This document shows, one piece after another, positions 511 to 17,530 of a stretch of DNA of 23,401 bases; position 1 is the first letter of the stretch; every line of letters starts with the position of its first letter. The translations under genes and the position numbers were made by a program. The notes under the pieces are model-generated. The model had not been told where the DNA came from, searched no databases, and saw nothing but the letters and a program-made list of their open reading frames with translations. Source of the DNA: a virus; IMG/VR virus record IMGVR_UViG_3300048135_000527, positions 1-23,401 of that record; one strand, written 5' to 3'.

Positions 511-962
511 GGCGCGTCGTCGATGCCTAAGTAATCGCCAGACCCAAGCCTGATTTGATGGCCCAAGACATCCATCAATGTTTTGCCCAGTAACCCCGTG
601 CTCCCGTACATAAATCGAGCATCCTGCACGGTGATTTCTTTTCTTGGTTCACCAGCAAAATCCAACATTCCCGTGGTGCCTGGTCTGACGCGGTTATCAA
701 GCGTTGTAGGCGAAACGCAGTACCCACTAAATTGATCGCCTTCGATGTCAATGCCTGGCATCTCACGGTCATTGACCAAGCCACGCCGCAGGAATAACTC
801 AACAGTGATCGTCTCGTTTACTGGCACGATGTTGCCCGTTTCTGGGTCTTCCATCACCTGATCTGTTGGCACTTCAAAAGCAACAACTGCGTTTTTTAGT
901 GTTGATAGTGCGCTTGCCACGTCTTCCCCTTGCTGGCCTAGTTTGCCGAAATCAGAGGGCAA
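507..962 (-). CDS. Probable head-closure / head-tail joining protein
   Basis: 151 residues. The first codon is TTG at 962-960; the first in-frame ATG would remove about 36 residues, so TTG is preferred, though no clear ribosome site precedes it. The protein is predicted mostly beta (VNETITVELFLRRG, EPRKEITVQDARFMYG) with a GSGDYLGID end. It lies immediately upstream of, and overlaps, the gp10-like gene, the usual position of a head-closure protein. Function is inferred from this pairing, not from a recognised motif. Only 23 bases separate it from the divergent tape measure gene, so promoters for either direction must lie inside coding sequence. Confidence 0.5.
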   Translation of the reverse strand: MPSDFGKLGQQGEDVASALSTLKNAVVAFEVPTDQVMEDPETGNIVPVNETITVELFLRRGLVNDREMPGIDIEGDQFSGYCVSPTTLDNRVRPGTTGMLDFAGEPRKEITVQDARFMYGSTGLLGKTLMDVLGHQIRLGSGDYLGIDDAP

Positions 963-985: not shown

Positions 986-3019
986 GTGGCTGAATACGGC
1001 GGAAAGGTAGAAGTCAGGCTTGAGTTATTAGGCGTAAGCGTGACAATGCGTCAGCTCAAAAAGTTTGAGCGGCAGGCATTAGTCACTACAGAGAAGTTAA
1101 AGAGGGGTTTTGATCAGGCAAACGTAGCCATCAATGGGATGGCGCGATCATTAGCGCCATTGGCAGCGTTAGCGGGTGGCGTTGGGTTTGCTTCGCTTGC
1201 TTTTCAGATTCAACAGATCGGCAAAGAGTCTCAAAACGCAGGGCGACAGCTTCAGTTTTTAACGGCTGAATACAACGAGACGGCCAAAGCAACGGCATCG
1301 GTTGCGCGTGTTTCAGCGGTGTTAAACGTCTCAACGCTGCAAGCGACACAAGGGCTGTCAAAGCTGTATGGGGCACTGAGGCCGACAGGGCTAGAGCTTG
1401 AGCAGATTGAGGTTCTGTTTGTTGGTTTTACTAAAGCGGCCCGTAGGGGCGGCGCGACGACGGCAGAAGCCGCTTCGGGCTTGCTGCAGCTCAAACAAGC
1501 TTTCAGCGCAGGCCGTTTAAGCGGTGATGAACTGCGAAGCGTTCTTGAGGCAATGCCAGCGGCATCAGTTGCGATTGCTCAAGCATTTGACGAGGTAAAC
1601 GGCACAACCGGCACGACGGTTGGTCAACTAAAAGAGCTTGGCAGCCAAGGCAAAATCACAAATGACGTGCTGTTTAAAGCGGCAAAGAACTTGGCGTCTC
1701 TAGATATTGCAGCGCCGACAAATCTTGAGGGCTTAAGCAAAGCGTTCGAGAACTTTGCGGAGAATGTTGCCAAAGCAATTGGCCCCGCTGTTGTCGATGG
1801 TTTGGCGGGACTAGCTGCAGCAATTAGCTATGTGTCTGAGGTATTTGCTGAAAATCGCGACACGATCGTTAGCACGATCAAGCAAGTCGGAAACTTTATC
1901 GGGACGGCTCTAAAGCTTGTCGCTGCAATCAAAATTGTTGCGGGAGTCATCAAGCTTTGGCGCCTGAGAACGCTTGCGCTGGCAAAGGCAAAAGCCTTAT
2001 TGCAAGCATTTAGCGGCCCCCTGGGGGTTGCTTCGTTGCTTGCTGGCGCTGCTGCTTATGCAGGCGTTTCAGCCGCTGTTGGCAAGGCAGGCGAGGAGAT
2101 TTCAAAGACCGCCGACAAGATCGGGGAGAAAAACAAAAAGCTCAAAGAAGATTTCAAAAATATGCTCAGCACGGTGGCGTCACCACCATCAACAACCAAC
2201 ACCGCCCTTGCTAAAGCCGCTGAAGAGTTAAAGGTCGTTAACGCTGAACTCAAGCGCAGCGAAGCACTTGCAATGGAGCAAGCCAAGGGCATCTATGGCC
2301 CTAGCACCCTCAAGGTCATGGAGTCCCGCGTGAAGCTTGCACAAGCTGAACGGGCAGCGCAGGAAGCCAACGCAAAGCTTGGGGCAACCAACAAGAAAGA
2401 CAAGAACTTTTCCAAGCTTGATGCAGCCGCTAAGGACGCAGCAAATGCAAGTTTGCTTGCTGCTGAAGAGACCGCCAGGGTTCTGAAAGAGGCATATAAG
2501 GAGGCCAAGGAAACGGCCCTGAGTGCCGCTGATGCGCTTGGCAAAGCCAAGACCGACAGGGCTTCACAGCTCTTTGGTGATGGTGGAATCAACCAATATT
2601 TGGATTCAGGTCAGAAAAGAAGTCGGCAGGCTGCAGGCGTTGAACTTCAAAAGCAAGAATTCCGCAAGATAAAAGCCGAACTAGCTAAATCACTTGGCGG
2701 TTCTGCCGGTCAAAAGATTTCAGGCTTGCGAGTTAGCGGAGGCAGTCAGGAATCACAGTTCGCGCTTCGACAAAAATTTATCGAGAACGCACGCGAGGAG
2801 TTGTATGGAAAGAAAGCTCTTATCACTGCCCAACAGGAGTTAACGGCAGCAATCACGGATTTGAATACTACAGTTGCCAAAGGTGGGGACAGCGTATTGG
2901 CCAAGAGCAATGAGAAATTGATCGAGTCAATCACGGGCTTAACCAACAAGGATTGGGGCGTGAAAGTTGATGCACAAGTCACTGATGGAACTATCCAAAT
3001 CCAAAACGCACTCTCATGA
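986..3019 (+). CDS. Tail tape measure protein
   Basis: 677 residues with a GTG start. Tape measure proteins set tail length and are ejected with the DNA. Residues about 85-275 match the conserved tape measure domain: 'LSKLYGALRPTG', 'AASGLLQLKQAFSAGRLSGD' and 'ELRSVLEAMPAASVAIAQAF' are characteristic. Hydrophobic stretches at about 55-72, 300-320 and 345-365 could span a membrane. The remainder is Ala/Lys-rich and helical, probably coiled coil. Using the general rule of about 1.5 angstrom per residue, the tail would be roughly 100 nm. The stop overlaps the next ATG by 4 bases (3016-3019). The usual chaperone pair upstream of a tape measure is absent here; a candidate lies at 9518-10680. Confidence 0.92.
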   Translation: MAEYGGKVEVRLELLGVSVTMRQLKKFERQALVTTEKLKRGFDQANVAINGMARSLAPLAALAGGVGFASLAFQIQQIGKESQNAGRQLQFLTAEYNETAKATASVARVSAVLNVSTLQATQGLSKLYGALRPTGLELEQIEVLFVGFTKAARRGGATTAEAASGLLQLKQAFSAGRLSGDELRSVLEAMPAASVAIAQAFDEVNGTTGTTVGQLKELGSQGKITNDVLFKAAKNLASLDIAAPTNLEGLSKAFENFAENVAKAIGPAVVDGLAGLAAAISYVSEVFAENRDTIVSTIKQVGNFIGTALKLVAAIKIVAGVIKLWRLRTLALAKAKALLQAFSGPLGVASLLAGAAAYAGVSAAVGKAGEEISKTADKIGEKNKKLKEDFKNMLSTVASPPSTTNTALAKAAEELKVVNAELKRSEALAMEQAKGIYGPSTLKVMESRVKLAQAERAAQEANAKLGATNKKDKNFSKLDAAAKDAANASLLAAEETARVLKEAYKEAKETALSAADALGKAKTDRASQLFGDGGINQYLDSGQKRSRQAAGVELQKQEFRKIKAELAKSLGGSAGQKISGLRVSGGSQESQFALRQKFIENAREELYGKKALITAQQELTAAITDLNTTVAKGGDSVLAKSNEKLIESITGLTNKDWGVKVDAQVTDGTIQIQNALS

Positions 3020-3783
3020 CTGATTGCACCCTCCTCTCAACGCTAAAGATTGGCGATTTTGAGTATTCCGCTGGTTTCTTTACTGTGCAGCCATTCGGCT
3101 ACGCAGAGACAGAAACACAGTTAGGGCTCACGGCTGAAACGGTGCAGGTCACGGCATTAATGACCGCAACCGAATGGGCTGCCCTTTTGGCTTGTTACGA
3201 CGCCTGGCGCACTGAGCGTCTGGACGATGACGTGGAAGACATCAAGGCAACTGTTGGGAGCACTGTTGATGTCTCGATGAAAGCCAACGGTATTGAATGG
3301 GTCGACGTTCCTGCGTACTTTCTGACGGCCCCGGCAGGCACTCAGGCGGGCTTGTATGTCGAGGCCACTTGTCAGCTAGGCAACGCTGAGCAACTGGTAG
3401 AGGTCTTTAATCGTCAAGAGGAAGTGGCCGCCAACGATGGCGTTGATTACTTCGGCACGTTCAACCTTTGGGGCACAACGCTGAAGCTGCGTAAGCCACC
3501 GGAGACGATGCAAGACATGCCGACATTGCAGTTGTCGGCAGGCGGCAGAAGCTACACAACGGGGCCACGCACCCCAACCCAGGTGATGGCATTAGAAGGT
3601 GACACCGACAAAGCGGGGTGGATCGCTATCTATAACGATTGCGGCAGAGAAGCATCAGATAAGCCAGCGACTGATTGGTTCCCCGTGTCGGCACCTAATG
3701 CCAACGCAACGAAAAGGATCGTCAAAGGCGTAAGGGACGACATCTACACCGTTTCAATTTCCGTTGGTAAACCCCAGACCTAA
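3016..3783 (+). CDS. Distal-tail (Dit-like) / minor tail protein
   Basis: 255 residues, ATG overlapping the tape measure stop. It begins with a beta-rich segment (LKIGDFEYSAGF) and has no signal peptide or membrane segment. In long-tailed phages the gene directly after the tape measure normally encodes the distal tail protein, which joins the tube to the hub. The assignment comes from that position and the beta character; no specific Dit motif is recognised. The TAA stop overlaps the next ATG by one base. Confidence 0.5.
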   Translation: MTDCTLLSTLKIGDFEYSAGFFTVQPFGYAETETQLGLTAETVQVTALMTATEWAALLACYDAWRTERLDDDVEDIKATVGSTVDVSMKANGIEWVDVPAYFLTAPAGTQAGLYVEATCQLGNAEQLVEVFNRQEEVAANDGVDYFGTFNLWGTTLKLRKPPETMQDMPTLQLSAGGRSYTTGPRTPTQVMALEGDTDKAGWIAIYNDCGREASDKPATDWFPVSAPNANATKRIVKGVRDDIYTVSISVGKPQT

Positions 3784-6700
3784 TGGCAACTATTGACTCC
3801 CGCGCAACTGTTACCTGCAGCTTGGGTGAAGTTATTTCTGGCGGCGTAAGTGACAGCTACCTGCAGGGCAGCGGGCTGGTGATGACTAAAGGCCAGTTGA
3901 CGTTGGTGGGTCTTAAGACGCCTGAAATTGGGTCGAGCGTCACCGTCAACTATCAGATGAACGGCGGGGGCTCTGGCCGCATTCCTCGTGACCTGCGGGT
4001 GTTGAGTGCCTTTGCTGACCCCTTGCGTGGCACGTCTGAGATTTCGCTCGGTTGCAGGCTGACCTATTTAGATGGCGTCATGCCGGTGCCTAGCTTGCAG
4101 GACGGGCGGGCGGCATACGTGAGCCCGCGCCAGCTTGAATGCCTAAATGGCTTGCCTAAGTCGGCATTCCCGCCACCAATCATGGCGGATGACTTATTTA
4201 GATATTGCCTGCAAAAACTAGGGATAGCCTGCACAGCTATTTTAAAAAACAGTTATGTGATGGACGAATATGACCTAAGTGGCGGATATGTTGCAGCAAT
4301 TGGAAATCTTCTTTTAAGCGAATCAAAAGTCGGCTACATCAATGAAACGGGCAATTTAAGCGTTATAAACCTTGATGAAATACCTAACGGGACAATCTCT
4401 ATAACTGTTGACGATGTTATCGACATATCGTCAATCAACAGTGGGGAACAGCCTGCAACGATTGCGATTGTCCCTTACATTGACAAAAAGCTAGAGAATT
4501 ACAACCCTGAAGAAGCAAAATGGGATGAGGTCGAAACTATCGGCAATCCACAATCAGTCACGATTAAATGGAGCGAAGGAAGTGAAATTATTTCACATAC
4601 CCCAAGCACCCGCACCGTTACTGAGTATGGAGAGCCCACCAAGTTAACTGATCAATGTGATTTATACGAAGGTGGTTATGGCGATCTTTCTAATACAGTC
4701 GTTAGGACAACAACTGAACGATCCACTGTATTAGGCCAATCATCAGGCGGATATGCAACAGCAGTTTATGAAGGCGGCTTTAACCCAGGCACAAGCCGTT
4801 CAGGCGTAATTACAGAAATTACAGAATATGAGTTTGATGCTAAAGACCGACCATCAAAGACCACACGATCAATTTATGAACCCATGTTTGTTTATGCCGG
4901 GCGCATGAGCCTGCCATGGGTCTTAGGTGAACAGGCTTTAATCCTTGGCAGTGAGCCGGTTCTTGTTGAACGCAGCATTGAGGAACATGATTACGCGGGA
5001 GAGATAGAAGTACCCACAGGGATTCGCCCCGGTGTTGACATGCCGGACATGGTCGTTCATCAACGCTCACACCGTTACACCTATCAGGCGTGGGGCAAGA
5101 CGCAAGGGGGAAGCCAAGCACCGGCCGAGTCAACCACTGTTGATGCTTTTGAAAGTGTTGATCAAGTTCAGTCTTATGTCAATCAATCGCTTGGCCTGAT
5201 TCTTACCAATTCAGAAGTAACAGCCAACAAGACGTTTAACCCCAAAGGTGACACGCGACCCGGCGAGGCTGACCGTGGGGCGCAGCAAGGAACACTGGAC
5301 AACGCAGGCAGAACAACCAAATATGTCGAGCTTCAATTCAGCAGCTTTGGGTCTGACCCTCGGGTCGTTCAGTATTCACCGCCGCATTTAACCGAGAGCT
5401 ATTTTTCGTCAGGCGGCATAGCGATTGACGTTGATTGCTACGCAGTATCTGCGGCATTTGGTCGGGCACAGCACGCGTTAACGATTGGCAACCGCTTGGG
5501 CGTCAACATCCAAACCACGCCAGACAAAGGCAATTTCTTTCCGTTTAGTGGTGTCAGCATCAATCTCAAGGGTTACTCCGGAAGGTTTGCGGCCAATAGC
5601 CTCAACTATTCGTTTGATGCCAACGGAATCCTTTGCAGCTTCGATGCGCTCTACATGGGCGCGGAAGGCAGTGCGCCCGGTGGCGGTAGCGGTGGGGAGA
5701 ATGCTTTAAGCCAACCCTGGTATTACCTGCCTTCTGGCTATGACCCGGACAACCTCCCTGAAAAGGACGACGGCCAGGTCATCAAGCCGTTTAATGAGAT
5801 CTCAAACGTGCAAGGTGGGATTGCTCTTGGCTTAAAGGCTTATGGGTCACAGGCGCAAGGTTTAATCCCGCAGACGGTAGAGCTAGGGGTCAAGATCGGC
5901 GTTGATGGAACTAACGCCACCATCGTTGAAATCGTCAACGTCGGGATTGCTGTTGGCGTTGATGGGTCAGCCAAAACAGGCGTTACAAACGAAGCATTGG
6001 TAGGGGTAAAGGTTGGCGTCAATGTGCAGCCAGATCTAAACACGATCAAATATCCAACGCCTGGGGTCAGGGTTGGTTTTCACCTTGGGCCTGATTCAAC
6101 GCTGCCATTGCTGTTGATGAGCTTTGACGACGGCCCAGACGATCCATGGAAAGATAAATCACCTAATGATTGGCAATTTGTAAACGTCAATGATTCGGCT
6201 TTTTGGAATGAGCCATTGCCTCCTGAATTTGAAGATACAACGTATGACCCGCGTTTTGGCCCTGGTAATGTAATGTTCAACGGCTCAAATCCAAACAATC
6301 CTGTAGATGGAAGCTGGATGGGTGGCCTGTTGTCATCTGGCACCGGGATGGAATTAGGAACCGGAGAATTCACAGTTGAGTTTTGGATGTTTAATGATGA
6401 CTACACTGTCCACAGCGATCAATCTCGGACTTATGTTTCAATAACGGGCCCTGCCGATACGGCCAGCGATGGATACGGCAGCTGGGGTTTTGGCACGAAA
6501 GGAGTTGGAACGTCTCAAGAAGAAAACGGATGCGTTTTATTCACGATGATCAAATGGAACAAAGCAGGCTCTTTTTATACCGATTATTTGTATGATGCAA
6601 GTTCAACTAAAGTGCCTGCTAATGAATGGGTACATGTTGCTTTTGTGAAAGTTTTGGGTGTCCCTGGCGCGGCGTATCCAAACAATTACAATCAAATTTA

Positions 6701-6926
6701 TATGTATATAAACGGCGTGCGAGTGCATACAGAAGTGTTTAGCTGGCAAGACATTGCGGACAATACTTTTGGTGGCGAACACTTGGCTTTGGGCTATAGA
6801 GTTGACGGCGACGGAAACGCTCGCTCCGGTTACGCTCAGTGGTGCATGATGGATGAAATACGAATAACAAAGGGAAAGGCAATCTATACTGAACCAAGCT
6901 TTTCACCGCCAACCGGGGCGTTCTAA
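3783..6926 (+). CDS. Tail hub / receptor-interacting protein with C-terminal LamG-like lectin domain
   Basis: 1047 residues. Residues about 1-620 resemble tail-hub proteins placed two genes after the tape measure, including a conserved-looking core (YLDGVMPVPS, then CLQKLGIACTAIL and a YINETGNLSVINLDE strand pair). A Gly/Ser linker (about 635-645) leads to five short repeats (680-770). Residues about 780-1047 look like a concanavalin A/LamG jelly roll: EFTVEFWMFND, ANEWVHVAFVKV, IYMYINGVRVH and MMDEIRITKGKAIY are typical strands, with the closing 'DEIRITKG-x-A-x-Y'. Such domains bind glycans and probably help the tail tip recognise the host surface. Parts of the gene near 4190-4900 and 6130-6900 are more AT-rich than their surroundings, suggesting domain exchange. 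Confidence 0.7.
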   Translation: MATIDSRATVTCSLGEVISGGVSDSYLQGSGLVMTKGQLTLVGLKTPEIGSSVTVNYQMNGGGSGRIPRDLRVLSAFADPLRGTSEISLGCRLTYLDGVMPVPSLQDGRAAYVSPRQLECLNGLPKSAFPPPIMADDLFRYCLQKLGIACTAILKNSYVMDEYDLSGGYVAAIGNLLLSESKVGYINETGNLSVINLDEIPNGTISITVDDVIDISSINSGEQPATIAIVPYIDKKLENYNPEEAKWDEVETIGNPQSVTIKWSEGSEIISHTPSTRTVTEYGEPTKLTDQCDLYEGGYGDLSNTVVRTTTERSTVLGQSSGGYATAVYEGGFNPGTSRSGVITEITEYEFDAKDRPSKTTRSIYEPMFVYAGRMSLPWVLGEQALILGSEPVLVERSIEEHDYAGEIEVPTGIRPGVDMPDMVVHQRSHRYTYQAWGKTQGGSQAPAESTTVDAFESVDQVQSYVNQSLGLILTNSEVTANKTFNPKGDTRPGEADRGAQQGTLDNAGRTTKYVELQFSSFGSDPRVVQYSPPHLTESYFSSGGIAIDVDCYAVSAAFGRAQHALTIGNRLGVNIQTTPDKGNFFPFSGVSINLKGYSGRFAANSLNYSFDANGILCSFDALYMGAEGSAPGGGSGGENALSQPWYYLPSGYDPDNLPEKDDGQVIKPFNEISNVQGGIALGLKAYGSQAQGLIPQTVELGVKIGVDGTNATIVEIVNVGIAVGVDGSAKTGVTNEALVGVKVGVNVQPDLNTIKYPTPGVRVGFHLGPDSTLPLLLMSFDDGPDDPWKDKSPNDWQFVNVNDSAFWNEPLPPEFEDTTYDPRFGPGNVMFNGSNPNNPVDGSWMGGLLSSGTGMELGTGEFTVEFWMFNDDYTVHSDQSRTYVSITGPADTASDGYGSWGFGTKGVGTSQEENGCVLFTMIKWNKAGSFYTDYLYDASSTKVPANEWVHVAFVKVLGVPGAAYPNNYNQIYMYINGVRVHTEVFSWQDIADNTFGGEHLALGYRVDGDGNARSGYAQWCMMDEIRITKGKAIYTEPSFSPPTGAF
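5820..6095 (+). repeat. Five in-frame ~20-residue beta repeats in the hub protein
   Basis: Within the hub gene, units begin near residues 680, 701, 720, 740 and 762: IALGLKAYG, LGVKIGVDG, VGIAVGVDG, VGVKVGVN and VRVGFHLGPD. The core is a hydrophobic-Gly alternation ending in Val-Asp-Gly. The period of 19-22 residues fits a stacked beta stalk carrying the LamG domain away from the hub. Confidence 0.75.
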
Positions 6927-7361
6927 ATGGCAATCACTACAGCAATTAGCACTGAAGAATTCAAGCGAATTGCACAGCTTGCCTATGAGGGTTTGCCTTG
7001 CACAGTCAGCCTGCACAACAACACAGCCAGCTTGACGGCTGAAAGCACTTTGGCGGAGTGGGACGCTGTAAAACTTCCCTCGTCTAACGGTTATGCAGAC
7101 TTCACGGTGGCAAGCCTTCCCGCAGGCGGTTTAGACCCTGGCTCTGATGACCGCTGGGAAATTGGCGGAACGGCTGGGGCTAATACATACGTTGAAGCCG
7201 CGTTTACCGCTGAAGGCGCAGGTTTTGCGTTCAACGCAGTTGTAATCCGCGTTGGGTCTGGTTTATACCCTCACTCAGTTCTTGTTGAAACGCCTTCCAT
7301 TACCGTTGCCGCAGGGCAAACACAGACATATCGCATCCAATTGTTGATCGACAACATTTGA
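6927..7361 (+). CDS. Hypothetical tail-region protein
   Basis: 144 residues. The ATG follows the hub stop directly with no gap. A short helical start (STEEFKRIAQLAYEG) is followed by a beta-rich body with many Ala, Gly and Thr, ending in a TYRIQLLIDNI strand. There is no signal peptide or membrane segment. Its place between the hub and another large tail gene points to a tail-tip or fibre accessory protein. I do not recognise a family. Confidence 0.6.
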   Translation: MAITTAISTEEFKRIAQLAYEGLPCTVSLHNNTASLTAESTLAEWDAVKLPSSNGYADFTVASLPAGGLDPGSDDRWEIGGTAGANTYVEAAFTAEGAGFAFNAVVIRVGSGLYPHSVLVETPSITVAAGQTQTYRIQLLIDNI

Positions 7362-7364
7362 TCA

Positions 7365-9392
7365 ATGAGCACTGAAATCACGGTTGTTGTCGGCGCTGAT
7401 AGCAACCTTCGGCGTGATGCTGCAACACGTACGGCACGTAGGCGCGACCGTCTGGACAGTGAAGCACTTAGGGATCAAGTCAAAGCAAAAGCGCAAGAGG
7501 AAGACAAGTCAAAAGGGTTCAACAATAAAAAGGATGAGTATGACCCCAGCCGTGACCCTGCTGCGCATGCCCGCAAAAAATCTGATGTAAGCGTTGGCGG
7601 TTTCACGACATGCAACATCAGGCAGCTTTATTACAAGGAAAGAAAGACGGAACTTACCACCGAAATTGGCAGTGTGGCATATAACTACAGTGGCGGAAAG
7701 TTTATGGATATATTCATTAAAGCGATTAAACCCGACGGCAATTATGGAAATGAGGTTGAAATCAATATCACTAGAAATCGTCTCGACCCTATGTTTTATG
7801 TGCCTCAGTCTGAGTTAGATGTAACTCTTTCAGACAAGCTTGGTTTGTTTATCGCATATCCTGTTGCAGGTAGATATTTAACCTGGCGAGACGCTCCATA
7901 TAGGAGTAACTACAGAGCGGGGCTTTTATACTCTTTAGCATATCAAGACGGCGCAACGCCTAACCCTTATAGATATTTTGGCTGGTATCCTTATTTTGGC
8001 CCTAATCAAAGTGATGATGTCGGGCGACCTAATAAATTTATTAAATTAGAGGATGGCACTTGGAGGGCTTACAGGGGATCTTCCGATAATGTTTACGACA
8101 ATATTCCAGATCAATATTTAACCGATGCGTCTGGTACTTTTGACCACTACATTGCGTTAGGCGAATTTTTTAGCAATGGCAGTGCAAACTATTATAGATA
8201 TAATTACAACCGCTATATGAGTTGTGGCGATGAAGACGACATCCAAAACGCTTTAGGCCGTCCAGGTTATGGCGACCCTGGCTATCAAATATACATGCTG
8301 CCATTAAATGAAAATCATTCTTATGTAGCCATTGTCTACACCGACGTTGAGATTTCATTTCGCGGCTTTGCTCACTATTACGGAACAATGGAAAGCCGTG
8401 TTGACGTTGAAGGCGAGCACCCTGACGCTGACTTGTTTTCCGGCTTTTACGCAGGCCTAGGCGGCACCAGACATTTAGAGCCACCTGAATATTTCTATCC
8501 GCCTTGTTTTGAAATTAACAGCTCTCAAACCCAACTTACGGATCAAGTTTTTAAGAAGATCCAGCAGGTCAAAATCGTTCAACTCAAAGATGGTGTTGCA
8601 ACGTTGATCCCTGACGATCAAATTCCTGCGTCCCTAAGACAATCGCTTGGTGTTGTAATGCCTTTAAACCCTGAAACAAAAGCCCCAATAGACTTTTATG
8701 ATACTTATTTTATGGGGTCAGGTAGAGATTATAGATGGCTTTGGTCATACGACCTTGATCTAGGCGCGATGACTTACAGCATCACAGCAACAGATGACAA
8801 CCAAGTTTATAAAGAGCCCGTCATAGATTGGTATGCATACAGGAATTTAGATTTTCATGGCATTAACTCTCAAGGGCGAAACGGCAGCGAATATCGAGAC
8901 GACAAAGCGCGTGATCGATCGCTAGCAAAGGGATATGGCTTTGGCTTTCTTGAAACCAGCAATCATTTTGATTCAATTTATGTTGAAAACTATGGTCAAC
9001 CGTTTAAAGCAGAAAGCACATATTTGGCAAACGATCCAATATTTACGCCTGCGATTTATTCTTACCTTGGCTTGGTTGCTAAGCCCTCAATTAATTATGA
9101 GGTGGCTGAATCAGGGTTACTGGGCATAAAGCCTGAAAGGTTTGTGTCTATTGATTTTGAAACCAAGCAAGTCTCGTCTGTGCAGCTTCCTGATTCTTTG
9201 AGCAGCATTGATGTTTTAAATCCGATTGACAGTTCACTGGTGTCTAAGCCGCAAGAGATCCCAATTTTTAGACGTGCCACTCATTACGCCTGGAACTGGG
9301 ACAACCCTGAGTTTTGCTGGCAGCGTTTGATTGATATGGGCTTTACGGCTGCCATGATTGGCCCCAAGCCAGAGAACCCAACTGATGAGTGA
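7365..9392 (+). CDS. Large Tyr-rich hypothetical tail-region protein
   Basis: 675 residues, starting three bases after the previous stop. Residues 1-75 are highly charged and likely helical (RRDAATRTARRRDRL, then Lys/Glu/Asp-rich). The remainder is beta-rich with unusually dense Tyr, Asp and Asn (for example RYFGWYPYFGPNQ and NYYRYNYNRYMSC). No domain is recognised. Location suggests a virion tail-tip or adhesion protein. The DNA is more AT-rich than the tape measure gene, so it may have been acquired separately. The last 8 bases overlap a small ORF. Confidence 0.6.
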   Translation: MSTEITVVVGADSNLRRDAATRTARRRDRLDSEALRDQVKAKAQEEDKSKGFNNKKDEYDPSRDPAAHARKKSDVSVGGFTTCNIRQLYYKERKTELTTEIGSVAYNYSGGKFMDIFIKAIKPDGNYGNEVEINITRNRLDPMFYVPQSELDVTLSDKLGLFIAYPVAGRYLTWRDAPYRSNYRAGLLYSLAYQDGATPNPYRYFGWYPYFGPNQSDDVGRPNKFIKLEDGTWRAYRGSSDNVYDNIPDQYLTDASGTFDHYIALGEFFSNGSANYYRYNYNRYMSCGDEDDIQNALGRPGYGDPGYQIYMLPLNENHSYVAIVYTDVEISFRGFAHYYGTMESRVDVEGEHPDADLFSGFYAGLGGTRHLEPPEYFYPPCFEINSSQTQLTDQVFKKIQQVKIVQLKDGVATLIPDDQIPASLRQSLGVVMPLNPETKAPIDFYDTYFMGSGRDYRWLWSYDLDLGAMTYSITATDDNQVYKEPVIDWYAYRNLDFHGINSQGRNGSEYRDDKARDRSLAKGYGFGFLETSNHFDSIYVENYGQPFKAESTYLANDPIFTPAIYSYLGLVAKPSINYEVAESGLLGIKPERFVSIDFETKQVSSVQLPDSLSSIDVLNPIDSSLVSKPQEIPIFRRATHYAWNWDNPEFCWQRLIDMGFTAAMIGPKPENPTDE

Positions 9393-9525
9393 AAACCTAC
9401 AGAATCAATTGAAGATGCAACAGCAGGCAGCTCGAAGTCTTCGGCTGCAGAGAGAAAAGCGGGAAAGAGAAATCAAGGAAGCTCTTGTTAATATTGAGAA
9501 CAAACGCGGGAAAATGTATGGCTAG
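9385..9525 (+). CDS. Small charged helical protein, 46 residues
   Basis: ATG at 9385 to TAG at 9523-9525. It overlaps the preceding stop by 8 bases and the next gene's ATG by 8 bases, fitting the end-to-end coupling of this operon. The product is rich in Gln, Arg, Lys and Glu (AARSLRLQREKREREIKEAL) and should form one long helix or short coiled coil. Function is unknown; the short length and low complexity keep confidence moderate. Confidence 0.5.
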   Translation: MSENLQNQLKMQQQAARSLRLQREKREREIKEALVNIENKRGKMYG

Positions 9526-10099
9526 CCTTCCTTTTGTTCAGGCGCCGATTGAACCTGAAATTAGGCGGTGCGGTAATGCTCAGACCGGCATTCTTGAGTT
9601 TCCTGTGCTGAACGGTTTGACGGTTGGCGAAGGGGAAATTATTGAAAAGCTGTCTGATTCACAGGCCGGAACTTTGGAGGTCAGCGCACGCATTGCCCAG
9701 TCTGTTGCGCGGAAAGAGAAGATTACGCTTACGGAGGCGTTCGGCGTGATTGAGAAGGCATTGGCTGGCCAAGAGCTAGAGCCTGCTCAGGAGAAGCTTG
9801 TGGAGCGTCATTCAGCAGACATCGATGAACTGCGTATGTTCTTTGCACAGCAAGGTGCGAAGACGCAAACCGCCACTGTCACAGCGTTGATTCGGTGTCG
9901 CTTAAACCTGCCCAAGTGGGACGACATGGCGCATCTGCCGCGTGCTTTGTTCAATGAGATTTGGGCTTTTGCTGAGGAAGAGATCGCAGCAGAAGGCCAA
10001 GGCGCAGTACACGTCCCAACAGAGGAAGAACTAAAAAAGCCGCAGGTAGCTCCCAGCAACGGGAAAGCACCGATTGGGAGTCAATTGGTTGGGATCTGA
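9518..10099 (+). CDS. Tail assembly chaperone, short (gpG-like) form
   Basis: 193 residues from the ATG at 9518; an upstream TTG at 9485 is possible, but the ATG has a GGGAAAA stretch before it and leaves only a short overlap with the preceding ORF. The protein is acidic and helical, with a C-terminal section (LPRALFNEIWAFAEEEIAAEG) like chaperones that bind the tape measure during tail assembly. An A AAA AAG heptamer lies near its 3' end, in the correct frame to send some ribosomes into the -1 frame, as in lambda gpG/gpGT. Unlike the usual order, this gene lies about 6.5 kb downstream of the tape measure gene. Confidence 0.65.
   Translation: MASLPFVQAPIEPEIRRCGNAQTGILEFPVLNGLTVGEGEIIEKLSDSQAGTLEVSARIAQSVARKEKITLTEAFGVIEKALAGQELEPAQEKLVERHSADIDELRMFFAQQGAKTQTATVTALIRCRLNLPKWDDMAHLPRALFNEIWAFAEEEIAAEGQGAVHVPTEEELKKPQVAPSNGKAPIGSQLVGI
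10033..10080 (+). other. Programmed -1 ribosomal frameshift cassette
   Basis: The zero-frame codons CTA AAA AAG contain the heptamer A AAA AAG at 10033-10039, the most efficient bacterial -1 slippery sequence known. An SD-like GAGGA at 10022-10026 lies just upstream, as in dnaX. Nine bases downstream, CTCCCAG (10050-10056) can pair with TTGGGAG (10074-10080), giving six Watson-Crick pairs plus one G-U. The -1 frame is open from 9976 to the stop at 10678-10680. Confidence 0.85.
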
Positions 10100-10680
10100 T
10101 TTATGCGTTTCCTTCTGAGTTCAGCCATTGCACGTTCCGCAGCGAGCTAAGGGTCAAGGTCAGGAGTGCTTACAAGAATTTGCAACGCATCAAGCGCGAT
10201 CAGGTCGCTTTGCTTGAGTTGCCTATTGCCCAGCTCACAAGCCTGACAGCCAACATCAACAGAGACAGCAAGAAGACGCCAAAGCCGTTCACGCTGCAAG
10301 ATTTTGCGCTGTTTTATCGGACTGACGAAAGCGACGGGTTGCCGCCTAACGCCGCAATGGTTGCGCTGTCACTCAGGCGTGAACGGTTGATGCCAACTGT
10401 TTTGGTTGGCGTGTGGCCTGAAGTGCTTGCGGCAGCCAAAGAAGCCACAGCAATGCCAGAAGTCAGAGCGTTGATTTCTGATTGCGGGTCGGTTGCGTTG
10501 CTTGCTCCTAAGCCAGAAGGCAAAGGTTGGCGCGGGTTATTGGCTGTTGATTCATATCCCCCAGGCGGTTTGATCACACTGCGTGACGTTGACCGTGAGC
10601 TATTGGCCTACAGCTTGCAGCTTCCGCCAACTGATCACATGTCCTTTGTCAGCAGTGATGAGTTGTTAGCGGCAAGTTAG
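10039..10680 (+). CDS. Frameshift extension of tail assembly chaperone (gpT-like part)
   Basis: The -1 frame has no ATG from 9976 until near residue 106 of this extension, and the first usable start is a TTG at 10180 inside a region that already reads as protein (TDWESIGWDLIYAFPSEF). It is therefore best read as the tail of a fusion: 174 residues from the upstream gene plus 213 from this frame, about 387 in total. In long-tailed phages the minor fused chaperone recruits tail tube protein while the major short form coats the tape measure. Independent initiation at 10180 would give a 166-residue product and cannot be excluded. Confidence 0.7.
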   Translation, partial: AAGSSQQRESTDWESIGWDLIYAFPSEFSHCTFRSELRVKVRSAYKNLQRIKRDQVALLELPIAQLTSLTANINRDSKKTPKPFTLQDFALFYRTDESDGLPPNAAMVALSLRRERLMPTVLVGVWPEVLAAAKEATAMPEVRALISDCGSVALLAPKPEGKGWRGLLAVDSYPPGGLITLRDVDRELLAYSLQLPPTDHMSFVSSDELLAAS

Positions 10681-10697: not shown

Positions 10698-11258
10698 GTG
10701 GATCACCTAGCCAAGAGATTGCGAAAAACGATCCAGTTGATATTGCAAGATGAGATTGGAATTTATACGTTGGCAAATAAAGCGCAGACACCAGCCATTG
10801 CAGTGCGGGCCGATAGCGAGCGGTTGCCAACTGGCACGAAGGTCAAAGGCATGGAGGTCATTGTCAGCCGCTATGCAGACCAAGAGCCTGTCTTGCAATA
10901 CACGCTGCAGCCCATGGTTGAAACCTGGACTGTGTGGCTAGTTGGCTGGGATAACGAAATCAATTTGATGGATTCAGCTCACTTGCTGTTGGAGGCATAC
11001 CCCGGCAGCGAGTTCACCAAGCTGACGGTTCCAAAGTCTTGGGGGCCGACAAATCAGGTCAAGGTCGAATTAAGAGATCCATGGTTTGCGCCTGATGAGT
11101 TTGACGTTAAGGATTTGGATGGAGGTTATTTCCACCCAATTTTGTCGATACCTGCGACAGAGAAGCAGTTGATTGTTGATTCAGGCAACCTGACCAACGG
11201 CGCTACGCAAGACCAATGGATCGAACCCAAGCCGGTTGATGGCGGTGTCTTTGCGTAG
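10698..11258 (+). CDS. Putative tail-completion / tail-terminator-like protein
   Basis: 186 residues from a GTG at 10698, preceded by a weak GCAGGG. The N-terminal helix (DHLAKRLRKTIQLIL) followed by alternating strands (TWTVWLVGWD) recalls small tail-terminator or completion proteins. The assignment is tentative. It closes the rightward tail operon before a hairpin that may end transcription. Confidence 0.45.
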   Translation: MDHLAKRLRKTIQLILQDEIGIYTLANKAQTPAIAVRADSERLPTGTKVKGMEVIVSRYADQEPVLQYTLQPMVETWTVWLVGWDNEINLMDSAHLLLEAYPGSEFTKLTVPKSWGPTNQVKVELRDPWFAPDEFDVKDLDGGYFHPILSIPATEKQLIVDSGNLTNGATQDQWIEPKPVDGGVFA

Positions 11259-11307: not shown

Positions 11308-11523
11308 ATGCCGCAACGCATCAAAATTCGGAATAGTTCGGAAATTGGGAAAGTCCCAGACGCAGCAGATTTAAACGTTGCCGAACTTGCGCTAAACGTT
11401 GCGGATAAAAAGCTTTATTCAAAAGACGTTGCGGGTGATGTCTTTGAAATTGGTGTAACTGATATTCCACCTTTGGATTTTGTACCTCTTGGTTCCTGGG
11501 CGTCTATCCCTGAGTTGCTCTGA
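11308..11523 (+). CDS. Small fibre-adaptor-like protein
   Basis: 71 residues. The segment VAELALNVADKKLYSKDVAG matches a pattern common at the N-termini of phage fibres and virion surface proteins ('ELALN-x-x-x-x-KLY-x-K'). Here it stands as a separate short ORF whose TGA overlaps the ATG of the fibre gene (TGATG). It may be an adaptor that docks the fibre, or an N-terminal fibre domain that became split off. No other domain is visible. Confidence 0.65.
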   Translation: MPQRIKIRNSSEIGKVPDAADLNVAELALNVADKKLYSKDVAGDVFEIGVTDIPPLDFVPLGSWASIPELL

Positions 11524-14500
11524 TGGCTGAACTACAAGACGCCGACAAGTTTTTGGTCAACCGCTCTAACAACACGAGACAACTAAGCAAGGACAAACTA
11601 ATGGCTGAATTGCGCGATGATGATTTGATGCTGGTCAACCGGGCCGGTGTTTCGTATAAAGCCACTGGCGCTGAGATCAAAGACTCGTTAAAGCCAGACG
11701 AGGAAGCTCCTGATATTAATGCGGTTGCATTAACTGAGATTGAAAACGGCTATCGCTACACCGACAAGGAGTTTCCATATACCGTTGACATGGCGGCTGA
11801 TGGTAACCCGCCCCCAACGTATGCCGTAAAAGCAAAGCTATCTGGGACGACGTTTAACTTTGCTGTTGAGTCAGATGCCATCACCAAAGTAGAAGGTGGT
11901 GGTACAAACGTTTATACAACTGACACGATTGCGAATGTAGAAGATGTAAATGAAGTTATAAACTATGCGAATAGCACCAGTATTCCCGTATTGCAATATG
12001 GTAAAACTGCCAACATATTTGATGGAGACTTGACCACCGGCGCAGGGAGACAGAGTGGGATGGGTGTTCAAATGACTAACCTACCTACGGCTAGAGAGTC
12101 AGTATCTTTCTACATATCTGCCGCTAGGTATCAAGTACAATGTATGGGTCAAATAAAATCAAATATTGTCGGAGCAAAGTGGACGACGTTTAATCTCTCG
12201 GGTCTAGTAAATAGAGTGGAAATAAACGCTACTGAATCTGGTGCGGTGATCGATCTGCGTGCCATCAAGATAGATGATGTTTTGTTGGTAGACGGGGTTT
12301 TTAATACAGGCGCTATCCTCACCTTCCCAACCTCCAACAACTTCGACAAGTTTGAAGTGGGTGATGTGGTTCAGTCCACTAAAACATTTAATGAATTTGA
12401 CTGGGCATCACTGGTTGAAGGACCACCAGCAAATGCTACCTATTCTCCTTCTAAATCCTTTGATAACAATACCGCAACTTTCTCTTTTGCCGATTTAAAT
12501 AGTTATCTAAAATTCGTACCGACACAATTTGGAAGTGCAAAATCAGTTAAGATCACGTACAAAATCGGGTCAACAGGTGGAGCCGCCGATGCTTCTTACC
12601 TGCGGGTAAATGGAGTGGATGTAAATGATGTCTTTGCAAATAACACTTTAATTGAGAAAACCATTGACGTGACAGGTGTTGGTCTTAATTCCATCGAATG
12701 GTACGCCACTAGCAGTTCTCTGTATTGCGGTGTCCAGAAGATAGAAGTAGACGGTAGAACTTTGGTTCAGCCAGGTACTGCTGGAGGAACAGGTGAAGAT
12801 TATTCAATCACCGCCATCGATGCAGACGGTCCAACCATCACAGTTGATGGGGGCGATTGGTATGTACCTCCTGGTAATAACTACACAGAAGGTGTTAGCG
12901 CAACTGCCCCATATAGTGATAACTTAGGACCTGAAAAGATTTTTGACGGCAGTACTAACACCGGATGTACGCTAAACGATGCTGGCGTAGCAAATCGAAT
13001 TACAATTGTTTTTGATCCTGGTATTCCCTATAGCAACAAGATTGAGACATCAAGGATTCACGGACCTTCTTCAACGGGTAATGTAAAATGCGCTGTTAAT
13101 GGTCAGACTGATGATTTAGCAACATTGGTTCCGTATAACGCCAATGGAAGTGTAAAAACACAGGTGGCTAGTGGTTTAGGTACTTTAACAAGACTTGAAT
13201 ACTTTAATTCAGGTCCTTCAAACCCAGCTGTATGTAGCATTTGGGTTGATGAAGTACTACTTGTGGACTCTATTGGCGATACAGAACTCACCAAGACCGT
13301 TGCTTATGAAACCAAGCTGACGGTTGCTAGCGACAAAGATTTAAGCCTCATCACTGGTGACATCTACATGACAGATGGCACCGTCAAGCAAGACGGCAGC
13401 GGTGAATTTGAACCTGCGTCTTACACGCCACAGACCAGTGAGATTGCGAGTGTTAGCGGAGAAATTTATAGCAACAGCCTTACGGCTAATGTCTCTTGGG
13501 GCAATCCACCCACTTCTGCATTTGATGGGAACATAGAAACTTACGCTAGTATCCCTCCAGGTGGACAGATAACATTTACATACAACTTAGGGACAACTGC
13601 AGGCGATTCAATCTTTTTCCGTTTCAATAAAGATAACGATAATGCCAACAGAGAGGTATCTTTTAATGGTGGATCTAACTGGTTGAAAGAACCAACAAGA
13701 GGTGGTGGAGTAACTTACGTTGCTACAGGAAATATAACTTCAGTTATATCAAGAGGTAGTTCACCAACATTTGGTTCAATTACTATTAATGGTGTTGAAC
13801 TTATTGACACCCCCACAACCCTCACCTTCACCACCCCTAACCCTGACCTTCAGTATTTTGAAGTGGGTGATGTGGTTCAGACAATAAAACCTGACACATT
13901 CGGGAGTGGAGCTTGGCTGATGAACGTAAGGAATCCTCCTAACAATAGTGAAGGTACACTTTCATTTTCCCCTGCTCCCACACCCTCGGACGGTAAGATT
14001 TGGGTCTACTTTGATCAAAATAATAGCTTAAATACAGAGTGGACAGTAACAGGCTCTGCGGGCACCCAAACTTTTAATAACACTGGTTGGATTAGAGAAA
14101 ATGGAACCCCGAGCGGCGCAGCCGGTATCGCGAAGGGGTGGCATTACTACCCATACTTAGGTCAAGTTCAAAGTATTAATTGTTTTGAAAACGCAAGCAA
14201 TCGTTCTGCATGGAGGTCAAAGGCGATTTCTTTTGGCTCAAATAACAGGAATGACGCTTTACAAGGTATTAGTATCACACCCCTTCCGTCTACACAAGTC
14301 CAAGAACCTATAACATTTACAGTACAAACAGTACAAGGTATTGAGGTTCAAATGTATTGCAGAGAATTTAGCACCAACGTAAACTTCTCACCTATCTACA
14401 TGTTCAACATGGAGGCGGATGGTACTGCTGATGTTGAATATGTAGAAATCATCGCCATTGACACAACCGCCAACACGATGACTGTTGATGGTGGTGAATG

Positions 14501-16808
14501 GCACGACAGCCGTGATCAAATTTGGTCTACTGAAGGAAGTTGGACTGGCGATGTTGTAGATAAAGAAGCTATGTTTAACGGTTTGGCAGGCGACCCAGCC
14601 GTGACCGGTACGCAGGCATATATAAATAATAGTGAATTTGTCTACACGTTTAACCCCCCAATTACCTCAATTCAAACATTAGAGATTGAGCTTTATACCT
14701 TTGGATCGACGTCTGGAAAGTCAAATCATTTTTATCAATACAACAGCGGCGGGTGGATAACAACAACGCCTAATAATGAATTAAGTAACCTTTTTGTCAC
14801 ACATTCCCACAGTGTCTCAACTCTGACGAACATTGGGTATAAAGTATCGGCTGTTGGTAATGGTGGAATTGCCAGAATTTGGGTTACATATACTAACGGC
14901 GATAGAAAATTATTGGTTGACAATTTTGGCGAATCAAGCGTTACCGGTGGACCCTATACAGCAGAAGGTACTTTCCTTGAAGCTAACGGCACAGAAGTAA
15001 ACCTCTCTGCTTCTTCCGGTCGTTGGATTGCTGATAACAAAGCAGGTATTCCCTTCAGCTTTGTGCCTGCAACGCCAATCGTTGACACCCGTAATGAGGC
15101 ATACGGCAAGCTCCAAATCGTGAACGATAAGGCCATGGTTACTGGCATTCAGGCTGATGATCCTGGCTTCACCAATGTGACCCGCAAGGATTATGGGATC
15201 ACGTTCCCTGCGGCCTTTGCAACTGGCAATAGCCCTGACGATGATTTGCCTATGGGCACATCGATATCAACGATTGTGCAGGCAAAGAACATGATGGGAG
15301 AGAGCATTAAAGAAAGCAATGTGTTGTTGCCTTCGTTGCCTAACCCTGAGGGTTCTGCCGGTCCTATTACAGGTGCAACAGAGACGGATCTGACGGTTGG
15401 AACATCAGCCAACCTTGATGGCTTTGTTGCTAACGATGCGTTGGTAATGGTTGATGAGACTGGAGCAGTCGCAAGCTACACGCCTGTTACCAGCACAATT
15501 GCGAGTGTTGATTCATCAACTGTTAACGCTACTGCCACCGCCGTTCCAGGGTTTGCATTACAAAATACTCCCGACACTTTTATAGATGGCAATAAAACAA
15601 GTTACTATAACGCTGCTGGTGTAAGAGTTAATTTTAGCTCGCCTGTTTCTGGAGTATTTAGCTTCACATCTGGAGGAGGGGCAACACCTACAAACACAAT
15701 GAGTTTGTACGATTCCAGCGACAATCTACTTGATAGTTTTGGTGGTGCAACTACTAGCGACTATGCAAACGGTATAACACTCACTGCTCTTTCAGCTATC
15801 AGCAATGTTTCTTATGTTGTTACCAGTACATCCGCCACAGGAGTTAGTTCCGATGGGTGTACTTGGCATTACATGGAATTAAATGGTCAAATGGTTGTTT
15901 CTACCTTTACCCCTGGAACAACCCTCACTTTCAACACCCCTAACCCTGACCTTCAGTACTTTGAAGTGGGTGATGTGGTTCAGGATGGTGGCTGGAATCA
16001 AAGTAAGGAGTGGAGCAATTTATTCAGTAGCCCTGCAGCTTTTACTCAAGCAAAAACAAATGCTTTTGATGGCGATACCTCATCGGCTGCTGATACAACG
16101 CAAGGGTGGACACTTGATACATCAAGCCACTCTTTTGGAGCTGGAACTCACTCGATTAAAGTCCTGTCTGGAGGCGCAACATCAATAACTGTAAATTCAA
16201 CTTCTTTGACAGACCCTGGAGGAAGTGGCGTTAAAACATGGACTGGAACTGTTAATGGAGAAATCAATACTATTTTCTCAAACGTAGGTAGCGCCTCATG
16301 CCGTGGTATTTACATTGACGACAAGCTCCTCGTAGACCAATCCGTCTCTAACCCAAACGCAGTATCAATCACCGCCATCGATACTTCTGCCAACACGATG
16401 ACCGTTGACGGCGGTTCTTGGGCTGGTGCTGATGGTAGTGGTGATGTAGACGGCGAAACAGTAGCTACCGGACCTGAGAAATCAGGTGTTGCAACCTTCG
16501 TTTCTACCAACGGCACCGACACGATGACCGTTGAAAACAGCAACCTGGAATTCATCACTAATGACAACCGCCTTGGCGAAGAGTTCTTTATTAAGAAAAT
16601 CTTCACCGCTTTGAATGCTAATGACCCGGCGCACGTTGAAATGCAGAAGGCTGTTAACGAAGCCTTTGAAGCATTCCCCAAAAACGTTCAGGCCAGAAAG
16701 ACTCAGATCGCCAAGACCTTCACCAAGCTGGTAGCTGGGGCAGCCATCACCAAGGCAGAACTAAACGCCCTGCGCGTAGTGGTTGAGGCCGCTGCTGAGG
16801 ATGACTAA
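11523..16808 (+). CDS. Giant modular tail fibre / adhesin-like protein
   Basis: 1761 residues. The N-terminus has two short repeats (LQDADKFLVNRSN and LRDDDLMLVNRAG), typical of cyanophage-type fibres. The body is a series of beta-sandwich-like modules. Several open with a FDG-x-x-x-T motif reminiscent of discoidin/CBM domains (FDGDLTT, FDGSTNT, FDGNIET, FDGDTSS) and close with IxIDxxLLVD (KIDDVLLVDG, WVDEVLLVDS, YIDDKLLVDQ). They are joined by two connector sequences, each present three times. The last ~70 residues are helical. The likely role is host-surface recognition. The module interiors are AT-rich and diverged while the connectors are conserved. The 3' end overlaps the convergent endolysin by 4 bases. 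Confidence 0.75.
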   Translation: MAELQDADKFLVNRSNNTRQLSKDKLMAELRDDDLMLVNRAGVSYKATGAEIKDSLKPDEEAPDINAVALTEIENGYRYTDKEFPYTVDMAADGNPPPTYAVKAKLSGTTFNFAVESDAITKVEGGGTNVYTTDTIANVEDVNEVINYANSTSIPVLQYGKTANIFDGDLTTGAGRQSGMGVQMTNLPTARESVSFYISAARYQVQCMGQIKSNIVGAKWTTFNLSGLVNRVEINATESGAVIDLRAIKIDDVLLVDGVFNTGAILTFPTSNNFDKFEVGDVVQSTKTFNEFDWASLVEGPPANATYSPSKSFDNNTATFSFADLNSYLKFVPTQFGSAKSVKITYKIGSTGGAADASYLRVNGVDVNDVFANNTLIEKTIDVTGVGLNSIEWYATSSSLYCGVQKIEVDGRTLVQPGTAGGTGEDYSITAIDADGPTITVDGGDWYVPPGNNYTEGVSATAPYSDNLGPEKIFDGSTNTGCTLNDAGVANRITIVFDPGIPYSNKIETSRIHGPSSTGNVKCAVNGQTDDLATLVPYNANGSVKTQVASGLGTLTRLEYFNSGPSNPAVCSIWVDEVLLVDSIGDTELTKTVAYETKLTVASDKDLSLITGDIYMTDGTVKQDGSGEFEPASYTPQTSEIASVSGEIYSNSLTANVSWGNPPTSAFDGNIETYASIPPGGQITFTYNLGTTAGDSIFFRFNKDNDNANREVSFNGGSNWLKEPTRGGGVTYVATGNITSVISRGSSPTFGSITINGVELIDTPTTLTFTTPNPDLQYFEVGDVVQTIKPDTFGSGAWLMNVRNPPNNSEGTLSFSPAPTPSDGKIWVYFDQNNSLNTEWTVTGSAGTQTFNNTGWIRENGTPSGAAGIAKGWHYYPYLGQVQSINCFENASNRSAWRSKAISFGSNNRNDALQGISITPLPSTQVQEPITFTVQTVQGIEVQMYCREFSTNVNFSPIYMFNMEADGTADVEYVEIIAIDTTANTMTVDGGEWHDSRDQIWSTEGSWTGDVVDKEAMFNGLAGDPAVTGTQAYINNSEFVYTFNPPITSIQTLEIELYTFGSTSGKSNHFYQYNSGGWITTTPNNELSNLFVTHSHSVSTLTNIGYKVSAVGNGGIARIWVTYTNGDRKLLVDNFGESSVTGGPYTAEGTFLEANGTEVNLSASSGRWIADNKAGIPFSFVPATPIVDTRNEAYGKLQIVNDKAMVTGIQADDPGFTNVTRKDYGITFPAAFATGNSPDDDLPMGTSISTIVQAKNMMGESIKESNVLLPSLPNPEGSAGPITGATETDLTVGTSANLDGFVANDALVMVDETGAVASYTPVTSTIASVDSSTVNATATAVPGFALQNTPDTFIDGNKTSYYNAAGVRVNFSSPVSGVFSFTSGGGATPTNTMSLYDSSDNLLDSFGGATTSDYANGITLTALSAISNVSYVVTSTSATGVSSDGCTWHYMELNGQMVVSTFTPGTTLTFNTPNPDLQYFEVGDVVQDGGWNQSKEWSNLFSSPAAFTQAKTNAFDGDTSSAADTTQGWTLDTSSHSFGAGTHSIKVLSGGATSITVNSTSLTDPGGSGVKTWTGTVNGEINTIFSNVGSASCRGIYIDDKLLVDQSVSNPNAVSITAIDTSANTMTVDGGSWAGADGSGDVDGETVATGPEKSGVATFVSTNGTDTMTVENSNLEFITNDNRLGEEFFIKKIFTALNANDPAHVEMQKAVNEAFEAFPKNVQARKTQIAKTFTKLVAGAAITKAELNALRVVVEAAAEDD
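12316..12374 (+). repeat. Fibre connector A, copy 1
   Basis: Encodes LTFPTSNNFDKFEVGDVVQ. This is the most diverged of the three A connectors; the 3' part (KFEVGDVVQ) is conserved in all. Confidence 0.8.
12804..12860 (+). repeat. Fibre connector B, copy 1
   Basis: Encodes SITAIDADGPTITVDGGDW, the first of three B connectors. It follows the second sandwich-like module. Confidence 0.8.
13416..13454 (+). repeat. Fibre module-boundary repeat, copy 1
   Basis: Encodes ASYTPQTSEIASV. The near-identical ASYTPVTSTIASV occurs at 15471-15509. Both precede an FDG-type module that ends in connector A. Confidence 0.75.
13818..13880 (+). repeat. Fibre connector A, copy 2
   Basis: Encodes a segment with NPDLQYFEVGDVVQ. 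By eye, 60 of 63 bases match the copy at 15921-15983, including third codon positions, suggesting recent duplication or recombination. Confidence 0.9.
14445..14501 (+). repeat. Fibre connector B, copy 2
   Basis: Encodes EIIAIDTTANTMTVDGGEW. It shares AIDxxANTMTVDGG with copy 3. Confidence 0.85.
15471..15509 (+). repeat. Fibre module-boundary repeat, copy 2
   Basis: Encodes ASYTPVTSTIASV, the partner of 13416-13454. It opens the third repeat super-unit of the fibre. Confidence 0.75.
15921..15983 (+). repeat. Fibre connector A, copy 3
   Basis: Differs from copy 2 at three of 63 bases, while the module upstream of each copy has diverged strongly. Confidence 0.9.
16364..16421 (+). repeat. Fibre connector B, copy 3
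   Basis: Encodes SITAIDTSANTMTVDGGSW. A decayed partial copy (TNGTDTMTVENSNLEF) follows at about 16507-16555. Confidence 0.85.
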
Positions 16809-17530
16809 ACGCCGATAAGCGTGCGGTAAGCCCTGTCTGTAAATGCGATGCGATCGTCTGCACCGTTGGGCCTGTTCATCCCGTTGACCCGTGCCCCAAT
16901 CTCATCAATCTGGGCATTGGTGCATTCCTTACGGGCGGCACACATCTCCCCCATGCCGTTCTGCTTCCACCAAAACGCGCTGATGCTCCAAGGGTATTTC
17001 TCGGCTGAGTAGGTCTTACCTAGCTCAAAGACCTTGGGGTCTCCGATTGATTCCCCAAACAAGCGGTGCCAATAAGCCCCTGTCACTTGGATAAAGCCTG
17101 TCCCGGCGTACTTCACGCCCCAGCCAGGTTCCGAATTGCCGAGATCATCTCGTCCCTCGTAATTGCTGCCATCGTGAATCTCCATTGGGTATTGAAGCCC
17201 CGCAGATTCATGGCCTATTTGGCCGAGGAAGTAAACCTGTTCCAGGGTGTCCATTTGGCAGTCAGCAACGCAACGGGCGTAATCGTTCATTAGATCGCCC
17301 GATAATTTGTCCGAGCTGCACTGCATGATGTATCCCATTTGCTCCTTGTTTATTGGCCAAGAGGGTGCAGGTGGTGGCTCAGGCTTTTCCCTGTATTTCA
17401 AAACCCATTGGCTCTGATCTGCCAAAAGGGTCTTAGGCATCATTGATTCAAGAAGAACAATGGCTTCCAACTGATTTGCATTGTTGGGGTCGAAGAATTT
17501 AAAGAAGTCAGGTAGAGAGATTTTGCTCAT
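16805..17530 (-). CDS. Endolysin, glycoside hydrolase family 19 (chitinase-like)
   Basis: 241 residues, ATG start. The catalytic domain occupies about 90-240: FLGQIGHESAGLQY holds the HES motif with the likely acid Glu108; NYEGRDDLGN (123-132), YAGTGFIQVTG (141-151) and VNGMNRPNGADDR (215-227) match GH19 lysins. The enzyme would cleave peptidoglycan glycan strands at the end of infection. Residues 1-50 plus a Pro-rich linker (EPPPAPSWP) could be a wall-binding or regulatory part. There is no signal peptide, so it would need a holin, and none is recognised nearby. It is convergent with the fibre gene (4-base overlap), so it is not in the rightward late operon. Confidence 0.88.
   Translation of the reverse strand: MSKISLPDFFKFFDPNNANQLEAIVLLESMMPKTLLADQSQWVLKYREKPEPPPAPSWPINKEQMGYIMQCSSDKLSGDLMNDYARCVADCQMDTLEQVYFLGQIGHESAGLQYPMEIHDGSNYEGRDDLGNSEPGWGVKYAGTGFIQVTGAYWHRLFGESIGDPKVFELGKTYSAEKYPWSISAFWWKQNGMGEMCAARKECTNAQIDEIGARVNGMNRPNGADDRIAFTDRAYRTLIGV

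Follow-up and report, generated by a model that had tools for sequence, protein, structure and literature searches.

A probable frameshifting tail assembly chaperone pair encoded away from the tape measure gene in cyanophage-like viruses

A conserved slippery site in a pair of overlapping genes

The window analysed here is a single virus contig of 23,401 bases (IMG/VR record IMGVR_UViG_3300048135_000527) from an uncultured, cyanophage-like virus. Two overlapping frames on its plus strand, TAC1 and TAC2, very probably form a tail assembly chaperone gene comparable to G/GT of phage lambda, the second frame being entered by a programmed -1 ribosomal frameshift; this reading is drawn from the sequences of the pair and of its relatives. 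The locus contains the following features:

9518-10099, plus strand: TAC1, the zero-frame product (193 amino acids, ATG start), an open reading frame (ORF) with homologs in 71 non-identical pairs and a putative gpG-like role
10022-10026, plus strand: GAGGA, a Shine-Dalgarno-like element six bases 5' of the heptamer, recognised in the sequence and matched by an AGGA-type motif in homologs
10033-10039, plus strand: slippery heptamer A_AAA_AAG, the predicted -1 frameshift site, present as A_AAA_AAG or G_GGA_AAG in 71 of 71 pairs
10039-10680, plus strand: TAC2, the -1 frame part of the fusion (213 amino acids past the shift), with a gpT-like helical part and a beta-rich C-terminal part (phrog_34388, a weak PF06223 match and an AlphaFold model)
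10049-10081, plus strand: hairpin predicted by folding 3' of the heptamer, with stability not above chance

The first-pass annotation of this DNA had described a frameshift cassette, and most of its elements are present: the heptamer is in frame within TAC1 (codons CTA AAA AAG), GAGGA precedes it, and the -1 frame stays open between 9976 and 10680, its first ATG, GTG or TTG being the TTG at 10180, so that from the heptamer to residue 48 the window offers no start codon. After a -1 slip the TAC2 sequence begins AAGSSQQ. Taken alone, the heptamer is not strong evidence, because in 137 of 2000 trials (about 7%) synonymous recoding of TAC1 created A_AAA_AAG or G_GGA_AAG at some position of the gene. 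A scan of nine plus-strand genes of the window for these two heptamers found one other, a G_GGA_AAG at 6872 that is a dead end, its -1 frame stopping after 4 codons; the same scan applied to lambda found G_GGA_AAG 18 nt before the end of G.

The heptamer becomes strong evidence through its conservation. Searches with both frames as queries led to the cyanophages PSS2, S-CBS2, S-CRES1, S-CRES2 and S-CRES3 and to IMG/VR contigs, which after removal of duplicates gave 71 non-identical readable pairs (67 IMG/VR records, the window included, plus PSS2, S-CBS2, S-CRES1 and S-CRES3). All 71 have a slippery heptamer at the same place and the second frame at -1, the heptamer being A_AAA_AAG in 26 and G_GGA_AAG in 45. 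Its first base is the wobble base of the upstream codon, and A there is always followed by AAA, G always by GGA: the codon pairs are CTA-AAA (22), CTG-GGA (37), TTG-GGA (6) and a few others, with no mixtures. It is thus the heptamer and not the protein that is kept, since the wobble base changes together with the next codon. A TAC2 tree built without the junction residues requires nine switches of heptamer type, seven or more of which fall on well supported branches, and no intermediates were seen among the 71 pairs; the slippery motif itself is therefore, as judged from these sequences, under selection. In three contig pairs, dN/dS values of 0.05-0.34 indicate purifying selection on both frames. 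The proposal of a programmed -1 frameshift cassette is thus strongly supported by the conservation and by the repeated switching, which without intermediates amounts to a clean natural demonstration of selection on slippage. The records of PSS2, S-CBS2, S-CRES1 and S-CRES3 (L001, L002, L003 and L004) do not annotate the frameshift and have TAC2 begin at a later start, and frameshifting is not mentioned in the PSS2 paper.

A run of six A in the window site (AAAAAAG) might suggest that the frame changes by transcriptional slippage and not on the ribosome, but the 45 homologs with GGGAAAG have no run longer than three, and the two types interchange on the tree. Transcriptional slippage is disfavoured because the G type lacks a long homopolymer, and is considered very improbable. 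Scarcely more credible is that TAC2 is a separate protein initiated at TTG 10180 (or at the nearest start in relatives) and that the heptamer is incidental. That codon does have AGGAG about 13 bases upstream; however, the first start of the TAC2 frame varies in position and type among homologs, a few of which have none near the junction, a start at 10180 would lose the first TAC2 helix and the conserved residues L20, P25 and F28, and an incidental heptamer is at odds with its presence in every pair.

Of the accessory signals, the upstream one is the better supported. An AGGA-type motif occurs 8-22 nt upstream of the heptamer in 58 of the 71 pairs, although GAGGA is missing in contig L009, and the Glu codon that forms the GAGGA element is GAG in 57 cases and GAA in 7, compared with 782 and 482 in the same genes (Fisher p 3.5e-6, relatedness uncorrected). 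This excess of GAG makes a Shine-Dalgarno-like upstream stimulator likely, and the GAGGA-type element is probably selected too. The hairpin that the first-pass annotation placed nine bases downstream fared less well: its stem (10049-10056 with 10074-10081) is predicted in one of two folds and is no stabler than those of shuffled sequences (z -0.62 and -0.92), and downstream folding in the 71 homologs has a mean z of -0.63 versus -0.35 to +0.18 in control stretches, a faint and unconvincing excess. The hairpin was dropped as a candidate stimulator, neither the shuffles nor the 71 homologs giving a convincing signal.

Gene order and exchange of the tape measure

The pair lies within a tail module of which the other features are:

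97-959, minus strand: inverted neck pair (an HK97-gp10/neck1-like protein and its partner) left of the tape measure, identified by phrog_5 neck1 (E 6e-4) and by relatives
986-3019, plus strand: tape measure protein (TMP_3), PF20155 (E 5.7e-29) and many PHROG tape measure families
3016-9392, plus strand: block between tape measure and chaperone pair, comprising a distal-tail-like gene, a hub-like gene with a Laminin_G_3 domain and two further tail or adhesion genes; positional guesses except for Laminin_G_3
10698-11258, plus strand: gene directly after TAC2 in both architectures described below, a candidate tail terminator by position alone

The last of these (the 10698-type gene) has no family match, and its comparison with lambda U by hhalign was negative. 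The tape measure gene of the window ends 6.5 kb 5' of the pair, so that the pair does not occupy the customary, though not defining, place of frameshifting chaperones, between the major tail protein and the tape measure.

Two architectures, built from the same genes, are found among the relatives. Type A, to which the window belongs, has the order major tail protein, inverted neck pair, tape measure, distal-tail-like gene, hub, adhesion genes, TAC1/TAC2, 10698-type gene and fibre; type B (S-CBS2, S-CRES1/3, L091 and L094) has neck pair, TAC1/TAC2, 10698-type gene, major tail protein, tape measure and hub. In PSS2, counted with type B, a long block of fibre genes separates the 10698-type gene from the major tail protein, and the tape measure is at 54104-59761. 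The 71 pairs divide into 46 of type A, 6 of type B and 19 on contigs too short to tell. The neck pair, which in relatives lies between the major tail protein and tape measure genes, is inverted and faces away from the tape measure across type A, and is co-directional in type B. The major tail protein was identified by PHROG matches in G004 and G001, the window copy lying beyond the left end. Between the major tail protein and the tape measure of this clade there are the two inverted neck genes alone; no other candidate chaperone pair was seen there.

The position of the pair about 6.5 kb after the tape measure, beyond hub and adhesion genes, which had been noticed in the window, recurs in the 46 non-identical type-A contigs. 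The TAC1 frame follows the tape measure at a distance of 5.5-7.4 kb (median 6.4). Wherever a type-A contig includes the inverted partner gene as well as the distal-tail-like gene (33 contigs), the tape measure's place between the two is occupied by a gene of 400 codons or more; some of these genes match PF20155 or PF10145, and others (L007 and L052, for example) are tape measures by place and size only, with no family match. The window being a single contig, its gene order could in principle have arisen by misassembly, or the frame break could reflect an error in sequencing or a pseudogene, but this has a negligible chance of being correct in view of the 46 contigs with the pair downstream of hub or distal-tail-like genes, the 33 informative contigs with a tape-measure-sized gene in place, and the purifying selection on both frames. 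The displaced pair characterises the lineage as a whole and is neither an isolated case nor a product of misassembly, and the rearranged module order that had been suspected is confirmed. In a limited open-access literature, no paper was found that reports a chaperone pair placed after the tape measure. Tail chaperones are usually sought directly before the tape measure, where the pair of the type-A lineage would be missed, as the frameshift has been in the PSS2, S-CBS2 and S-CRES records.

Exchange of the tape measure deserves more attention than displacement of the pair. In the contigs L078, L081, L082 and L093, TAC1 is 97-99% identical and the distal-tail-like gene 99-100%, and yet there are three types of tape measure, one with PF10145 and two with PF20155, which share 3-18% identity between types, with sharp drops in identity at the gene ends. 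The swapped tape measures located by this comparison are:

764-2938 of L078
394-2544 of L081
786-2822 of L093

The same swapping is found in the L005/L006/L023 and L028/L053/L056 groups. Most of the 33 tape measure genes have a recurrent start (VAESLG-AVLTLSVDD) and a similar end (KDW-V-V); their interiors form five groups, unlinked at the threshold used. Chaperone and tape measure sequences do not covary (partial rank correlation -0.04 to 0.12 over 465 contig pairs). Co-inheritance of the two was first suggested by comparison of the window with L009, in which both have diverged but g507, the distal-tail-like gene and the 10698 gene remain 92-98% alike; it was dropped, the partial correlation being near zero. 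The same comparison reveals a sharp recombination boundary in the window TAC2 at about 10340-10360, with 45-75% DNA identity to the left through most of the pair and 88-100% to the right through the 10698 gene.

The lineage thus splits two genes normally encoded side by side, and near-identical chaperones accompany unrelated tape measures, so that what the chaperone recognises, the ends of the tape measure or its general features, becomes testable. Tentatively, and with somewhat greater odds against than for, the pair may have become uncoupled from the tape measure, one conserved frameshifting chaperone serving interchangeable tape measures by recognising their similar ends while the interiors are swapped between near-identical genomes. 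If so, tail length or DNA-injection functions could change with the assembly machinery unchanged.

Identity of the two proteins and other genes of the window

TAC2 of the window matches phrog_34388 (E 8.4e-20), a family whose function is not named, as do all 11 members of homolog set A1. On 9 of 11 TAC2 homologs, PF06223 (Phage_tail_T, Minor tail protein T) matches the same segment, in L010 with 27.2 bits, above the curated cutoff of 25.9, and in L087 just under it. The AlphaFold models consist of a beta hairpin followed by helices for TAC1 and of a helical part followed by a beta-rich part for TAC2 (mean pLDDT 82), the latter having no convincing PDB match with a second-look aligner, the only one run on PDB. 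In BFVD the two proteins match the unnamed A0A346A5Z9 (TAC1) and A0A346A5Z8 (TAC2), which have consecutive accessions and are probably encoded side by side by a single phage. Chaperone ORFs of this kind are noted to resemble one another little in sequence from phage to phage (PMC5009743).

A number of results weigh against the chaperone assignment. The PF06223 match of the window's own TAC2 is weak (16.6 bits, E 0.011, below the cutoff), and hhalign of TAC2 against five lambda-type T proteins was negative; TAC1 has no Pfam, PHROG or NCBIfam match, and its AlphaFold model (pLDDT 77) has no convincing PDB match, to a known chaperone fold or to any other; the pair neither adjoins the tape measure nor covaries with it; and the downstream hairpin is no better than chance. 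The role is not proven, because TAC1 has no detectable relation to lambda gpG by hhalign. Nevertheless, it is the best reading of the available sequences, based not on decisive homology but on the frameshift architecture, the match of most homologs to Phage_tail_T, the location in a tail module and the absence of any other candidate, and the earlier identification of a tail chaperone is to that extent supported. We infer that the slippage is ribosomal and that the pair acts as a chaperone.

Alternatively, as the first-pass annotation allowed, the pair might be a frameshifting chaperone for another tail part, such as adhesion or fibre proteins, and not for the tape measure. Its location after the adhesion genes would fit, as would the lack of covariation and the near-identical pairs that accompany unrelated tape measures. 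However, the same pair follows neck genes in PSS2, S-CBS2 and S-CRES, and in S-CBS2 and S-CRES it is grouped with the genes for the major tail protein and the tape measure and stands apart from the fibres; the match to Phage_tail_T indicates a link to the lambda T family; and no other chaperone pair was seen in the tail module. This alternative is therefore unlikely, though less so than the others considered here.

The patterns used found no prophage with the pair in a bacterial and archaeal genome collection. The virus is possibly temperate, to judge from the following genes of the window:

16805-17530, minus strand: endolysin (phrog_181)
18141-19202, plus strand: integrase-like ORF, named by eye, with no PHROG match
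20323-21129, minus strand: Erf-like annealing protein
22810-23385, minus strand: exonuclease

A fibre-like gene (11523-16808, 1761 amino acids) has segments that match several places in the L009 copy, as repeated modules would. A sigma-70 region 2 protein (L014 4323-4865, L012 2584-3252; PF04542 with 25.8 bits, cutoff 24; phrog_351, E 8.5e-16) is encoded between the connector and major tail protein genes of the lineage; other contigs carry homologs of it farther to the right, on the minus strand. The minor head protein of L014 (1-1584) seems, from inspection by eye alone, to contain an intein (CVLGDTQITTG... to ...THNC).

Comparison with known systems

In the lambda system, as reviewed in PMC5009743, the tape measure is coated by gpG, and the rare gpGT fusion uses its T part to bring in the major tail protein. 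On the chaperone reading preferred here, most ribosomes in the window would terminate at 10099 to produce TAC1, and a presumed minority would slip back one base on the heptamer, probably aided by the upstream GAGGA element, to produce a TAC1-TAC2 fusion ending at 10680. If the parallel with lambda holds, TAC1 would coat the tape measure, the fusion would recruit the major tail protein, and both would depart before completion of the tail. The displaced position need have no effect on assembly, but may permit the tape measure to be exchanged without touching the chaperone. The mechanism is an ordinary one in an unusual, lineage-wide gene order.

The likeness to lambda G/GT consists of the G_GGA_AAG heptamer, found in lambda G and in 45 of the 71 homologs, a Phage_tail_T match that is weak in the window and above the cutoff in one homolog, and a second gene that overlaps the first in the -1 frame and is reached by a shift and not by its own start. 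The differences are of order and of sequence: the lambda order is Z-U-V-G-T-H, with the pair directly before the tape measure, whereas the window pair is 6.5 kb after it, and neither type A nor type B has the order U-V-G-T-H; lambda T has 144 amino acids, whereas TAC2 has 213 past the shift with a beta-rich C-terminal part, and TAC1 is not detectably related to the first lambda protein. The cyanosiphoviruses S-CBS2, S-CRES1/3 and PSS2 (phrog_34388) are closer, with homologous TAC1, TAC2, neck and 10698-type genes and the same types of slippery site, but they have the pair before the major tail protein and tape measure, whereas in the window it follows the tape measure and hub, and the neck pair has the inverted orientation.
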